Of a DNA stretch of 43,599 nucleotides, positions 25,006 through 29,130 are shown piece after piece. The first letter of the stretch is position 1. Every line of letters starts with the position of its first letter. The notes under the pieces are model-generated. The model saw only the letters and a program-made list of their open reading frames with translations. It did not search any database and was not told the origin of the DNA. A program made the position numbers and the translations under genes. This DNA comes from Antarctobacter heliothermus (lineage in GTDB: Bacteria; Pseudomonadota; Alphaproteobacteria; Rhodobacterales; Rhodobacteraceae): NCBI RefSeq assembly GCF_900188425.1, contig NZ_FZON01000046.1, forward strand, positions 1-43,599. Reading direction: 5' to 3'.

Positions 25006-27225
25006 CTAACCCAACCCCGCCATGGCAAACAACGGCAAGGCAGCCAGCGCCCAGCTGAGACCCAAATCATCCAGCCCCGCCCCCGGCGCATCACTGTCGA
25101 GTTCCGCGTCTTCGTCCGGCAGGCCCTCAAACAGGCTTTCATCCCCCTCTGCCTGAGCGCCTTGTCCCGGTGCAAATCCCATCAGCCGCAATAGCTCCTG
25201 TGCAGCCTCGGCAGGGTCAGCGACGGTTGTTGTGGCAGACGTCGGGGCCTCGCGCGGCACCAGATCGTGTATCTCGGCCCACAGATCGCGCGCCTCGTCC
25301 TCCGCGCGCGCCGGGCCGGTTGCGCCTTGCATCGGTCGCGCGGCAGAGGCCGTGGGCTCCGGCCCGCCAAACGACAGAATGTCCGCCCAGTCTTGCAGGG
25401 CTGCCCCGGGCTCGTCGTCCTGCACCGCCGAAACCCGGTCGCCGGATCCGGTGTCGAGGGCACGCAAATTCGCGAATGCGTCCGGTTCCGCGCCATCGCG
25501 CGCCACGTCCGGGGTCTGGCCACTCTCTGTGAACCCCATGACCATGGCCAGTTCCGGCTCGGTGTTCACGGGGGGCAGCCCGGGTGCGGCGGGGGTTATG
25601 TCGGGCCGCACATCGACCTGGGCGCTATCCGCCAGCTCAACATCCACCGGTTCAACATCGGACAGACCAACATCGCTCAGGTCATCCGGCACCGCCCCTG
25701 GCGCGGTGCTGTCGAACACCGGCGCAAACTCTGCCGTCGGGATCACGTCGAACAGCCGCAATTGCAAGATCTCGCCCTCGGCCAGCACCACATCCACCTG
25801 TCCGCCGTCATAGACGTCCTCCGGGTCCAGCCGCTCCAGCACCGCATCGGATGAGGTATCGCCCGGCGCCTGTCCGGGTGCGACGCCCAGCACCACGGCC
25901 TCGACCCCGCCAACATCCGCCACCAGCGCGCGCAGATCCACACCGCCTTGCACAACCCCGCCGCCCTGTGGCGCGGTGACATACAGCAGCATGTCGTCGC
26001 CATCGGCAAAGCCATGCACCTCGATCCCCGCGCCCTCATACTCTGTCTCGCGCGCATCGGCGGGGGCGAAATCCAGCATCGTCATGCCGGGCAGATTCTC
26101 CGACATCAGGGCAAACATCTCTCCCGGTGGCGTGTTGCCGGAATAGCTCATCCCTTCGCTCAGCGCCGACGGCGTGTTCTGGATCAGCGGCCAGACCTGC
26201 GCGGCGTCCACCCCCTCGGCCATGAATGCCTCGACCTGTTCCAGCATCTCCTGTGCCTGAAACAACCCATAATCCTGCGCCTCATCCAGCGAGGAGGAGT
26301 TTGACCGCAGGTTCCATTCGGTCACATGGATCTCAAGCTCCGGGTTTTCCTCAAACCATGTGTCCTGGATCTGATCGAGGTGAAAATACCGCGTGTGCGG
26401 CGCATCGGGGCCGCGCGAATAGACATGCGCGATGATCCCGTCGACGGCGTCCAGCTCCGCGGCGTCGAACTGTTCCAGCACCAGCAGGTTGTTGACCTCG
26501 GTCCAGTCGATCCGCGCGCCGGGCGACAGGTCCAGCCCGTAAGTGGCGTTCAGATCGGCGGCAATTTCAGCGTCGGTAAAGCCGCCATAGACCTCATCCA
26601 GCGAGGATTCGCCAAAGTTGGTCCCCATCTGCACCAGAATATCGACCTCTGCCGCCTCGGGGTACAGCGGCGCCAGCGCCTGCAATTCACTGTCGATGAT
26701 GCGGGTCATCTCGGACGCGACACGGCCATATTCGACCGCGTTCATCCGCCCCGATCCCCAGTATTCATTGCCGATCTCGAACCCCGCGACCGGCGCGTCG
26801 CCATATTCGCCGGTGATCACCTCGCGCACGAAACCCCGCAACTCCGTCTCATCCACTGCCGCGAATCGGTCACCATTGTCGTCAAAGCGCGTGTCGGAGA
26901 TCTGCTCACGCGTGGGCAGCACGATGGTCACCGCGCGGCCCGAGTCGCCCGCGTAATCCATGACGTCCGACAGCGGCATGAAATCCACCACTTCGCCAGT
27001 TTCATTGTCGGTGGCGGTGCGGGCATCAGGGTTGGACAGGTCGAAAAAGCTCTCTGTCAGCGACCCGCCGGGATAGCGCAGACTGGTGACGCCCAACGCC
27101 TCGACCGCCTCGGCATGACTGCCGGGGCCGGTCATCGGCGCGCGTGGCGCAAGAAGGTTGCCGCCGAACAGCCAAGCGGTCGCGGCCTCGCCAGCGCTGG
27201 CAAGGGGTACGGAAAGAATGGGCAT
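25006..27225 (-). CDS. Glycoside-hydrolase-like protein with acidic C-terminal region
   Basis: 739 residues. The N-terminal 400 residues look like a clan GH-A (beta/alpha)8 glycoside hydrolase of the GH39/GH51 sort: FGGNLLAPRAP, LRYPGGSLTE (42-58), acid/base Glu154 in EIGNEYWGSG, and nucleophile Glu303 in IHVTEWNLRS. A small beta domain follows (VLRYVTAP-like DMLLYVTAPQGGGVV). Residues 500 to 720 are strongly acidic and low in complexity (DLSDVGLSDVEPVDVELADS), and the last 18 residues are hydrophobic (LSWALAALPLFAMAGLG). I see no N-terminal signal peptide and no RTX repeats. Related proteins that I know in roseobacters are usually secreted by type I systems with RTX repeats; this one may use the hydrophobic tail for anchoring or be a shortened form. 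The substrate is unknown. Confidence 0.72.
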   Translation of the reverse strand: MPILSVPLASAGEAATAWLFGGNLLAPRAPMTGPGSHAEAVEALGVTSLRYPGGSLTESFFDLSNPDARTATDNETGEVVDFMPLSDVMDYAGDSGRAVTIVLPTREQISDTRFDDNGDRFAAVDETELRGFVREVITGEYGDAPVAGFEIGNEYWGSGRMNAVEYGRVASEMTRIIDSELQALAPLYPEAAEVDILVQMGTNFGESSLDEVYGGFTDAEIAADLNATYGLDLSPGARIDWTEVNNLLVLEQFDAAELDAVDGIIAHVYSRGPDAPHTRYFHLDQIQDTWFEENPELEIHVTEWNLRSNSSSLDEAQDYGLFQAQEMLEQVEAFMAEGVDAAQVWPLIQNTPSALSEGMSYSGNTPPGEMFALMSENLPGMTMLDFAPADARETEYEGAGIEVHGFADGDDMLLYVTAPQGGGVVQGGVDLRALVADVGGVEAVVLGVAPGQAPGDTSSDAVLERLDPEDVYDGGQVDVVLAEGEILQLRLFDVIPTAEFAPVFDSTAPGAVPDDLSDVGLSDVEPVDVELADSAQVDVRPDITPAAPGLPPVNTEPELAMVMGFTESGQTPDVARDGAEPDAFANLRALDTGSGDRVSAVQDDEPGAALQDWADILSFGGPEPTASAARPMQGATGPARAEDEARDLWAEIHDLVPREAPTSATTTVADPAEAAQELLRLMGFAPGQGAQAEGDESLFEGLPDEDAELDSDAPGAGLDDLGLSWALAALPLFAMAGLG

Positions 27226-27320: not shown

Positions 27321-28400
27321 TCACGCCTCGCGCCCGCCCGCCAGCAGCGCCGCCGCCAGCATGTCCGCCGCCGAAGTGCTCAGCGCCAGCGGCGTGTCGT
27401 GCAGCATCGACAGCCGCGTCAGCGCCTGCAAATCCACGTCCCCGCCATGCGGCACGGTCGGGTCGGCGAAAAAGATCACCGCATCCAGCTCTCCGGTGGC
27501 CACCAGCGCGCCCAATTGCTGATCGCCGCCCCGATCGCCGCGTTGCAACCGGCGGATGGCCAGTTCCGGGGCCAGTTCGGACAGCATCCGCCCGGTGCTC
27601 CCGGTACAGATCAGCCGGTGCCCCGCCAGCGCCGCGCGGTGCCGCAGCACCCAGGCGCGCAGTTGCGCCTTGCGCGTGTCATGCGCCACCAGCGCCAGCC
27701 GCCGGGGTGCTGTGGACACCGCCCGCGCCCGCGCCGTGATCGCCAGGATCGCGCGCACCTGCGCCGCGAACCCGCTGCCCTCTGCCGGAAACACCCCGGA
27801 CAGCGCCGCGGTGCCCACGGTAAACCCCGCCGCCCCCGCCCCGGCGCAAGCGGCCACACGGGCCTCGCTGTCGATGCTGCCCGCCATGATGACAGGTTTG
27901 CCCACAGCATCGCAGACCGCCTTCATCAGCGCCGGAACCGCGCCGTCGAACCGGTAAGCCAGCAGGTCCAACCCGTGTACATGCTCAAAATCCGCCAGTT
28001 CGCGGGCCGAGGCGGCGATCTCCTCGACCGGCCCTTCCAGCACGCTGGGATGGCCGGTGATCTTGCCCGGAAACGGGTAATACCGGACCGGATGATGGCG
28101 CGTGACCTCCGTCACCTCGCGCGCGCGCGTCCCGCCCAGCAGACAATCCACGTCGATCTCGACCGCCGCGCGGGCCGAGGCCAGCTCACTCTCCGCGTCC
28201 AGACTGACCACCTCCAGATACGACCGCCCCCCGGCGCTGCGAATCGCGGCGGCGAGGCTTTTGAGTTCGGACAGCGGCAGTCCCACGTCCTTGAACCCGA
28301 TATGGCGCACGCCGCCTTCCAGCGCCTCTTCCAGACGCGCGCGGGCATCGGGGATGGTGCGGTCATTGGCGGTCAGCATCAGGATAAAGTCAAAGGCCAT
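27321..28400 (-). CDS. Fusion of (beta/alpha)-barrel domain and methylglyoxal synthase
   Basis: 359 residues with two domains. Residues 1-205 look like a phosphate-binding (beta/alpha)8 barrel: HIGFKDVGLPLSELKSLA, YYPFPGKITGHPS, GLDLLAYRF and AGSIDS...GFTVGTAALSG, the last being a HisA-like phosphate loop. I cannot name its reaction. Residues 232-350 are MgsA, which turns dihydroxyacetone phosphate into methylglyoxal. All active-site residues of the E. coli enzyme can be aligned: VAHD (His240, Asp241), GGDQQ (Asp293), FFADP (Asp313), PHGGD (His318 and Asp321). The usual MgsA is a stand-alone protein of about 150 residues. The gene begins 3 bases after a short pyridoxal-kinase-like gene and the two form an operon. 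A phosphorylated C3-C5 substrate channelled between domains is an inference. Confidence 0.85.
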   Translation of the reverse strand: MAFDFILMLTANDRTIPDARARLEEALEGGVRHIGFKDVGLPLSELKSLAAAIRSAGGRSYLEVVSLDAESELASARAAVEIDVDCLLGGTRAREVTEVTRHHPVRYYPFPGKITGHPSVLEGPVEEIAASARELADFEHVHGLDLLAYRFDGAVPALMKAVCDAVGKPVIMAGSIDSEARVAACAGAGAAGFTVGTAALSGVFPAEGSGFAAQVRAILAITARARAVSTAPRRLALVAHDTRKAQLRAWVLRHRAALAGHRLICTGSTGRMLSELAPELAIRRLQRGDRGGDQQLGALVATGELDAVIFFADPTVPHGGDVDLQALTRLSMLHDTPLALSTSAADMLAAALLAGGREA

Positions 28401-28403
28401 GGC

Positions 28404-28898
28404 TCAGATCTCCGTTGCGGTCAGGGGGGCGGCGCGGGTCCATGTCGCGGCGGTCTCGGCAATGCGCAGGTGCGGCGCGTGCAGGCTGTTGTCGATCAGC
28501 GCGGACAGATGCCCCAGCGCCATACCCAGCGGCACGCCCGCCGCAATCAGCGCGGCAAAAACATCGCCCACCCCATGCGGCACCCCGTCCCGCAGGGGCG
28601 CCGGGTGGATCCGCGCATCGGCGGCCACCACCACATGCGCGGGCGTCGGCAGATACCCCACCAACAGCGCGTCCTGTTCTGTCAGCCAGCCATTCGCCGC
28701 CAGCGCCGCCATCATCTCATACAGGCATTCGGGCGGAACCGGGGCCCCGGCAACCTGCGGCCAGCCGGGATGATTGGACAACATCACCGTCGGCAATTGC
28801 GTGACCGTATGGCCCAGTGCCTGCAACGCCGGGACGCCAGCACACAGCCCGACGTGACCATGCGCCACCCAGCTGGACAGGATCAGGACACGGGCCAT
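28404..28898 (-). CDS. Short pyridoxal-kinase-like protein (internal deletion)
   Basis: 164 residues from ATG 28898. The N-terminal part matches PdxY/PdxK: VLILSSWVAHGHVGLCAGVP, TVMLSNHPGW, and LLVGYLPTPAHV. The C-terminal part carries the ribokinase-fold active-site motif as VPHGVGDVFAALIAAG (Asp112 is the expected base). About 100 residues between them that hold the DPVMGD and nucleotide-contact regions of a normal 280-residue pyridoxal kinase are absent, and no frameshift shows them nearby. The gene may therefore be a degenerate kinase or a small binding protein that retains the lid and catalytic loop. An alternative TTG start at 28949 would add 17 residues. It precedes the barrel-MgsA fusion by 3 bases and is divergent from the tRNA-Gly gene. 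Confidence 0.7.
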   Translation of the reverse strand: MARVLILSSWVAHGHVGLCAGVPALQALGHTVTQLPTVMLSNHPGWPQVAGAPVPPECLYEMMAALAANGWLTEQDALLVGYLPTPAHVVVAADARIHPAPLRDGVPHGVGDVFAALIAAGVPLGMALGHLSALIDNSLHAPHLRIAETAATWTRAAPLTATEI

Positions 28899-29056: not shown

Positions 29057-29130
29057 GCGGGCGTTGTGTAATGGTAAGACCTCAGCCTTCCAAGCTGATG
29101 ATACGGGTTCGATTCCCGTCGCCCGCTCCA
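29057..29130 (+). tRNA. tRNA-Gly, anticodon TCC
   Basis: A 74-base cloverleaf. The acceptor arm GCGGGCG pairs with CGCCCGC, followed by the discriminator T and an encoded CCA. The anticodon arm TCAGC/GCTGA encloses a seven-base loop CTTCCAA with anticodon TCC, which reads GGA and GGG. The T-arm contains GGTTCGATTCC. It is a single tRNA gene between the kinase-like gene (minus) and the ABC exporter (plus). No integrase or attachment repeat is visible next to it. Confidence 0.96.

Follow-up and report, generated by a model that had tools for sequence, protein, structure and literature searches.

The window, as the analysed DNA is called here, is a stretch of 43,599 nucleotides from a contig of Antarctobacter heliothermus (NZ_FZON01000046.1). 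It contains a gene in which a TIM barrel is joined to a domain of the methylglyoxal synthase (MGS) superfamily, and directly upstream of it the remnant of a gene for a PdxY-like kinase (Table 1). The nearest neighbours of the fusion gene are this remnant, a tRNA-Gly gene, an ABC transporter, a LysR regulator and an open reading frame (ORF) of 739 codons. The tRNA-Gly gene (anticodon tcc, positions 29057-29130) separates the kinase remnant from the ABC transporter gene. The 739-aa ORF (25006-27225) lies downstream of the fusion; its N-terminal part resembles by eye a glycoside-hydrolase-type barrel, and searches with Pfam (E-values up to 1) and NCBIfam (E-values up to 0.01) gave no match. A D-threonate-type pair of DUF1537 kinase and PdxA2 is absent next to the fusion in the window.

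Table 1. Features of the fusion locus in the window
Feature	Position	Strand	Basis
Fusion gene, TIM barrel plus MGS-superfamily domain, 359 aa	27321..28400	-	ORF, family matches, AF2 model
Barrel domain, residues 1-222	27735..28400	-	Alignment A4, AF2 strand order, HisA-like C-terminal part
MGS-like domain, residues 231-352	27345..27710	-	NF003559 (126 bits), phmmer alignments, residue table
Codon of Arg287, replaces phosphate-binding Ser65 of E. coli MgsA	27540..27542	-	Arg in 80/80
Codon of Gly320, replaces His98 of E. coli MgsA	27441..27443	-	His in 0/80
Remnant of the PdxY-like kinase gene, product of 164 aa, located 3 bp upstream of the fusion	28404..28898	-	ORF, PdxY match
Junction of the private 306-nt in-frame deletion	28616..28617	-	DNA alignment with four relatives

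The gene is a genuine fusion encoded by one ORF, as had been claimed in the first-pass annotation, and structural modelling, which had been proposed there as a check, likewise yielded two domains. The AF2 model of the whole protein, computed with 44 sequences, reached a mean pLDDT of 90.6 and a pTM of 0.87 and places a barrel in front of an MgsA-like domain. When this model was submitted to Foldseek, MgsA structures ranked first (1b93_C, E-value 2.5e-10, 40% identity), and the barrel matches among the 50 listed included ThiE, KDPG aldolase, ribulose-phosphate epimerase and HisA. The MGS-like domain scored 126.2 bits with NF003559, which is above the cut-off of 84, and 102.1 or 105.3 bits, depending on the run, with TIGR00160, which is below the cut-off of 146.9; PDB entry 1vmd was matched with an E-value of 6.8e-28.

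A scan of genome contigs detected 89 relatives of the fusion, of which the best 80 loci were kept. These include near-copies, such as L100 and L103, and the identity of their best segments to the fusion ranges from 66 to 91%. An open frame of 353-373 codons is present in 79 of the 80 loci. The sole fetched fusion locus with a broken frame is L108:5001-6076, the break being situated inside the MGS domain. The hosts are Rhodobacterales, Stappia, SAR116 and Rhizobiales-type metagenome-assembled genomes; two records with Verrucomicrobia in their titles (L078 and L081) may be mis-binned. Alignment A2 was composed of the window's protein and 43 of the 80 loci. Within the family of the window's host, 65 of 394 genomes gave some match: the whole fusion occurs in 26 of them, its own genome counted, the barrel alone in eight, with a distant barrel in one more (G343), and the remaining matches represent mostly MgsA alone. 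A maximum-likelihood tree was built from 72 barrels, those of 27 fusions sampled from the 80 and of every one of the 45 stand-alone loci described below. It united the sampled fusions on one branch (support 97/99, 98% of the bootstrap trees), and therefore the fusion most likely arose once. A chance event confined to this genome, which had been allowed for initially, or a local artefact is thus ruled out by the 89 relatives, the 26 of 394 genomes and the single branch. At 80% coverage the fusion was found in none of the 70 plasmid records with a match. Since simple gene callers missed some genes because of antisense ORFs, neighbourhood counts were taken from tblastn; beyond the kinase, no wider conserved operon was seen in the neighbourhoods of the fetched loci. 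The titles and displayed abstracts of the papers found in open-licence literature, in which absence weighs little, contained no description of the fusion or of the barrel beside PdxA2.

The search for the same gene pair in other genomes, also proposed in the first-pass annotation, located a kinase gene upstream of the fusion and in the same orientation in 29 of the 80 loci. In 27 of these 29 the two genes overlap by up to 11 bp or are up to 13 bp apart. All 29 adjacent kinases are full length (254-281 aa, with start codons placed by the analyst), so that the kinase lacking its middle, once described as part of the unit, is indeed short in the window and is not a feature of the unit. Compared with four relatives, exactly 306 nt (102 codons) are missing in frame. 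The remaining protein matches PdxY with 75.5 bits over residues 2-89, and its C-terminal GVGD stretch aligns weakly. The lost codons include the DPxxGD and TPNxFE blocks of the relatives, and blocks conserved in at least 90% of the aligned relatives lie in the deleted part (alignment A5, comprising the window and 22 of the 29 adjacent kinases). In five of five congeners the kinase matches the profile from position 2 to 233-239 of 288, as against 2-86 in the window's copy. Three other kinase matches in the window's genome are weak (20-41 bits) and lack the N-terminal third.

Members of the full-length kinase subfamily, recognised by a profile score of at least 384 bits, are present in 14 of the 26 fusion genomes, to which the window's remnant is additional, versus none of 40 family genomes without the fusion. 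The latter were picked by handle number, passing over G008, G021 and G028, and contained two weaker hits of 150 and 171 bits, which are probably other kinases. The resulting Fisher p-value of 1.2e-7 is too small, since the genomes are related members of one family and the bit-score line was set afterwards. In G239 the two genes lie on one contig at a distance of more than 3 Mb, and therefore the co-occurrence rests on more than adjacency. On these counts the gene pair is a genuine unit, and the shortening of the kinase is a loss private to the window. The first-pass annotation had assigned the two genes to no recognised pathway; the unit proved to be conserved, and the neighbourhoods of the fusion provided no pathway name either. 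The full-length kinase is absent from 12 of the 26 fusion genomes, including that of the window, and is therefore dispensable.

According to the alignments, the deletion is private to the window and probably recent, and the window probably combines a dead kinase with an intact fusion. A base-calling error, one of the explanations considered at the outset, is unlikely, because precisely 306 nt are missing, the frame is preserved and the flanking codons have ordinary substitution rates (dN 0.21 and dS 0.70 against L032, compared with 0.24 and 0.78 between L032 and L031); an assembly error is possible. The alternative that the short kinase is a working protein of new shape would agree with the precise frame, with the dN and dS values like those of relatives and with an AF2 model of pLDDT 80.4 and pTM 0.74. 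However, full-length kinases made up 22 of the 23 input rows of that model, a recent deletion leaves too little time for decay to show, and the full length of all adjacent homologues, the congeners' profile matches far past the break and the loss of highly conserved blocks render this alternative very improbable. PdxY-like kinases belong to a family acting on ring hydroxymethyl groups. The window's kinase shares the N-terminal half and GVGD with pyridoxal kinase PdxY (NF004398, TIGR00687) and differs from it in being incomplete, lacking the 102 codons. A full-length relative, that of L032, aligns over most of the PdxY profile, and the intact kinases that were scored remain under the curated cut-offs: the kinase of L032 scored 158.3 of 292 bits (NF004398) and 119.8 of 144.5 (TIGR00687), and those of the five congeners 118.8-136.8 of 144.5 (TIGR00687). 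Pyridoxal is therefore not assured as the substrate.

The active-site residues of the MGS-like domain were tabulated for 80 fused domains, namely the window and 79 loci, L108 with its broken frame being left out. Equivalents of His19, Lys23, Thr45, Gly46, Thr48, Gly49, Gly66, Gly69, Gly70, Asp71, Gln72, Asp101 and Arg107 (E. coli numbering) are invariant in 80 of 80, the Asp71 equivalent of the window being Asp293. The equivalent of Asp91 is retained in 78 domains, and position 20 is occupied by Asp in 55 and by Asn in 25. Four positions of MgsA are changed throughout: Thr47 is replaced by Gly (73), Ser (4), Asp (2) or Glu (1), Ser65 by Arg in all 80, and neither Pro at position 67 nor His in the column of His98 occurs in any domain. 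The standard pattern of the phosphate loop TGTTG and of SGP together with His98 was accordingly not found in the fused domains. The earlier claim that every catalytic residue of MgsA is kept thus had to be abandoned. All four residues, Ser65 among them, are kept in four of four PDB sequences. The same holds for 13 of the 14 MgsA-type ORFs from alphaproteobacteria that stand alone; for this set 20 loci were fetched, seven had no ORF by the filter, and L204 was added. The exception is L204, a further unusual MGS variant, in which a 510-aa frame contains a divergent MGS-like domain that has lost His19, Lys23 and TGTTG.

According to one paper on MgsA, Asp71 is the base, His19 stabilises O3, the phosphate is bound by Lys23, Ser65 and Thr45-Gly49, the carbons are covered by Gly66-Pro67, and His98 is accessory and perhaps not critical (PMC7843640); another lists His19, Asp71 and His98 as the catalytic residues (PMC1877815). 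Compared with MgsA (EC 4.2.3.3; NF003559, TIGR00160, PDB 1b93 and 1vmd), the fused domain has the same fold and shares the equivalents of His19, Lys23, Thr45, Thr48, Gly66, Asp71 and Asp101, but it stands behind a barrel and has Thr47, Ser65, Pro67 and His98 replaced. On residue conservation, it is a distinct MGS subfamily, in which the phosphate pocket is rebuilt and the residues for proton abstraction are kept. With such an incomplete active site, the conversion of dihydroxyacetone phosphate (DHAP) to methylglyoxal cannot simply be assumed.

Two other readings of the domain have to be weighed at this point. The changes might be tolerated, the fusion being the MgsA of its lineage and the barrel merely supplying or sensing DHAP. 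This would suit the NF003559 score above the cut-off, the conservation of the D71, H19, K23, G66 and D101 equivalents, the accessory role ascribed to His98 in PMC7843640, and a TIGR00160 search that hit nothing but the fusion in the window's genome and five of five other genomes of the genus. The scores in these six genomes (105.3-108.5 bits) are all under the TIGR00160 cut-off, however, G125 has a canonical stand-alone MgsA besides the fusion, and the exchange of Ser65 for Arg in 80 of 80 domains is more suggestive of selection for a new ligand than of drift, so that plain MgsA activity is somewhat unlikely. The MGS-like domain of carbamoyl-phosphate synthetase (CarB) is a ligand-sensing, allosteric domain, and the fused domain might have the same role, leaving the barrel as sole catalyst. 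The rebuilt phosphate pocket and the loss of His98 in all 80 domains would be in line with such a sensor, as would the occurrence of the same barrel, in other lineages, with another C-terminal partner, a cupin. Nevertheless, the invariant equivalents of Asp71, His19, Lys23 and Asp101 would be needless in a mere sensor; we regard this reading as unlikely.

No Pfam or NCBIfam model reached its cut-off on residues 1-222, and the same was true of the other barrels scanned. HisA (phosphoribosyl isomerase A) and other ribulose-phosphate-binding barrels have a C-terminal phosphate site resembling that of the window's barrel, and the barrel profile matched the HisA structure 1vzw over half-barrel stretches with E-values of 2.1e-9 (alignment A1) and 2.3e-7 (alignment A4). 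The barrel nevertheless differs from HisA in falling far under every HisA cut-off, with 14.4 bits for TIGR00007 (cut-off 228.95) and 15.2 bits for NF010112 (cut-off 243). HisA or another named barrel family was rejected on these low scores, and what survives of the HisA-like barrel originally proposed for residues 1-205 is a weak similarity at the phosphate site, the extent being 1-222. Among the residues invariant in 20 barrels (four fusion and 16 stand-alone, alignment A4) are T10, D13, K37, D38, E63 and R150. In the AF2 model K37 ends strand 2 and E63 ends strand 3, and T10 and R150 follow at most three residues after strands 1 and 6, respectively.

The lysine of strand 2 together with an AGS motif prompted a comparison with the 4-HFC-P synthase MfnB (PF04476), which is a single barrel without an MGS domain; no homology to the fusion barrel was detectable (hhalign probability 1.3%), so that the suspicion gained no support, and PF04476 has no match in the window's genome. 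For the archaeal MfnB, phosphate elimination to enol-methylglyoxal and a subsequent aldol reaction with DHAP have been proposed to take place in one barrel (PMC11365854). In a corresponding coupled reaction, the MGS domain would make enol-methylglyoxal, and its condensation with DHAP in the barrel would lead to a product of the furan or deoxyketose type, which the PdxY-like kinase would handle. The MfnB proposal and the weak resemblance that stand-alone barrels bear to ADH synthase (E-values of 0.001 for L111 and 0.00026 for L260) speak for such a reaction, but the profile comparison with MfnB, the missing ADH synthase match of the window's barrel at E-values up to 1 and the failure to recognise a ring-forming gene near the fusion make it quite improbable. 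A split MfnB-type chemistry can be envisaged, in which an MGS domain with a rebuilt pocket would feed enol-methylglyoxal or a longer dicarbonyl directly to a new class of barrel aldolase using DHAP, and a dedicated kinase of the PdxY subfamily would act on the hydroxymethyl ring or deoxyketose so formed. It is very improbable; if true, alphaproteobacteria would draw on triose phosphates for a biosynthetic or salvage route that is new.

Outside the fusion, the barrel was found without an MGS domain in 45 loci, the neighbours of which were determined by tblastn; some barrel hits were left unextended, among others G772 and the second copies in G664 and G682. PdxA2 adjoins the barrel in nine of the 45 loci, a cupin follows it in ten, forming one ORF with it in L113, and five of the loci contain a DUF1537 kinase. 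The barrels of PdxA2/DUF1537 operons share the invariant residues with the window's barrel and are 52-62% identical to it (eight family genomes), but in place of the MGS domain they have a cupin, PdxA2 or no partner at all, and they are accompanied by a different kinase family; PMC9997740 is a paper on DUF1537/PdxA2. Five plasmid regions were opened: in those of Rhizobium, Roseateles and Mesorhizobium the order is LysR, four-carbon acid sugar kinase, PdxA and barrel, in that of Gluconobacter it is the same minus the kinase, and Staphylococcus warneri has none of the three genes. Of the 45 stand-alone barrels, 27 form one deep clade, none of whose members adjoins PdxA2. Among the members that were checked, some have as neighbour a gene resembling glycerol-1-phosphate dehydrogenase (172.8 bits, cut-off 413) or type 2 glycerol-3-phosphate oxidase (195 of 460 bits), a class II aldolase or RraA. 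The aldolase and RraA, like a PEP-mutase family member and an FGGY kinase also seen beside the barrel, fit many pathways.

The PdxA2, four-carbon-acid kinase and cupin genes beside stand-alone barrels point to triose-phosphate chemistry of the DHAP type. PdxA2-type routes, G3P routes with glycerol-phosphate oxidation and MgsA meet at DHAP, and for this reason we presume that the barrel acts on DHAP or a close ketose phosphate; in the deep clade the DHAP theme comes from few loci and was partly read by eye. The reading we prefer is that the fusion is a lineage-fixed two-domain enzyme of triose-phosphate-type metabolism, to which we assign a probability of roughly 40%, the reaction itself being deduced from sequence. 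The kinase would load phosphate onto a small polyol, a keto compound or a ring alcohol. The barrel would hold this phosphate at strands 7 and 8, and Lys37, Glu63, Asp13 and Arg150 might drive chemistry of the isomerase, epimerase or aldolase type, with a DHAP-like ketose phosphate as the presumed product. In the MGS domain, Asp293 would abstract a proton and phosphate would be eliminated to give a methylglyoxal-type dicarbonyl. The substrate would be an altered one, given that the domain has lost Ser65, Thr47, Pro67 and His98. The fusion may serve to transfer a reactive intermediate from one site to the other, the barrel handing its product to the MGS domain or possibly taking one from it; the direction as well as the substrate and product are conjectural.

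The product of MgsA is a toxic dicarbonyl, and the fixed combination of an MgsA-like domain with a sugar-phosphate barrel in many alphaproteobacteria suggests a controlled handling of its substrate or product. The changed residues along with the co-occurring kinase make this question directly testable. Since the barrel family recurs beside DUF1537/PdxA2 operons, solving the fusion would also help to explain the barrels of these operons, some of which are labelled as dehydrogenases in RefSeq.

The records of the plasmid barrels carry the names '4-hydroxythreonine-4-phosphate dehydrogenase', 'cupin domain-containing protein' and 'hypothetical protein'. The first name is attached to L260:5983-6711, L262:5995-6693 and L264:5989-6669 and is likely an annotation error, judging from L260, the one barrel of the three that was scanned, which gave no match to a PdxA model. 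The record named 'hypothetical protein' on the Staphylococcus warneri plasmid (L261:5992-6654) is 37.7% identical over part of the barrel, and the barrel family therefore reaches the Bacillota. A second kind of fusion is represented by L190:4855-6666, in which PdxA2 and the barrel form a single ORF (TIGR00557, 379 bits, residues 46-368). Barrel-cupin fusions in PdxA2/DUF1537 operons are encoded by L113:7611-8663 and L263:6001-7056, and the barrel-cupin gene of Mesorhizobium adjoins genes for threonine aldolase, threonine dehydrogenase and threonine synthesis.
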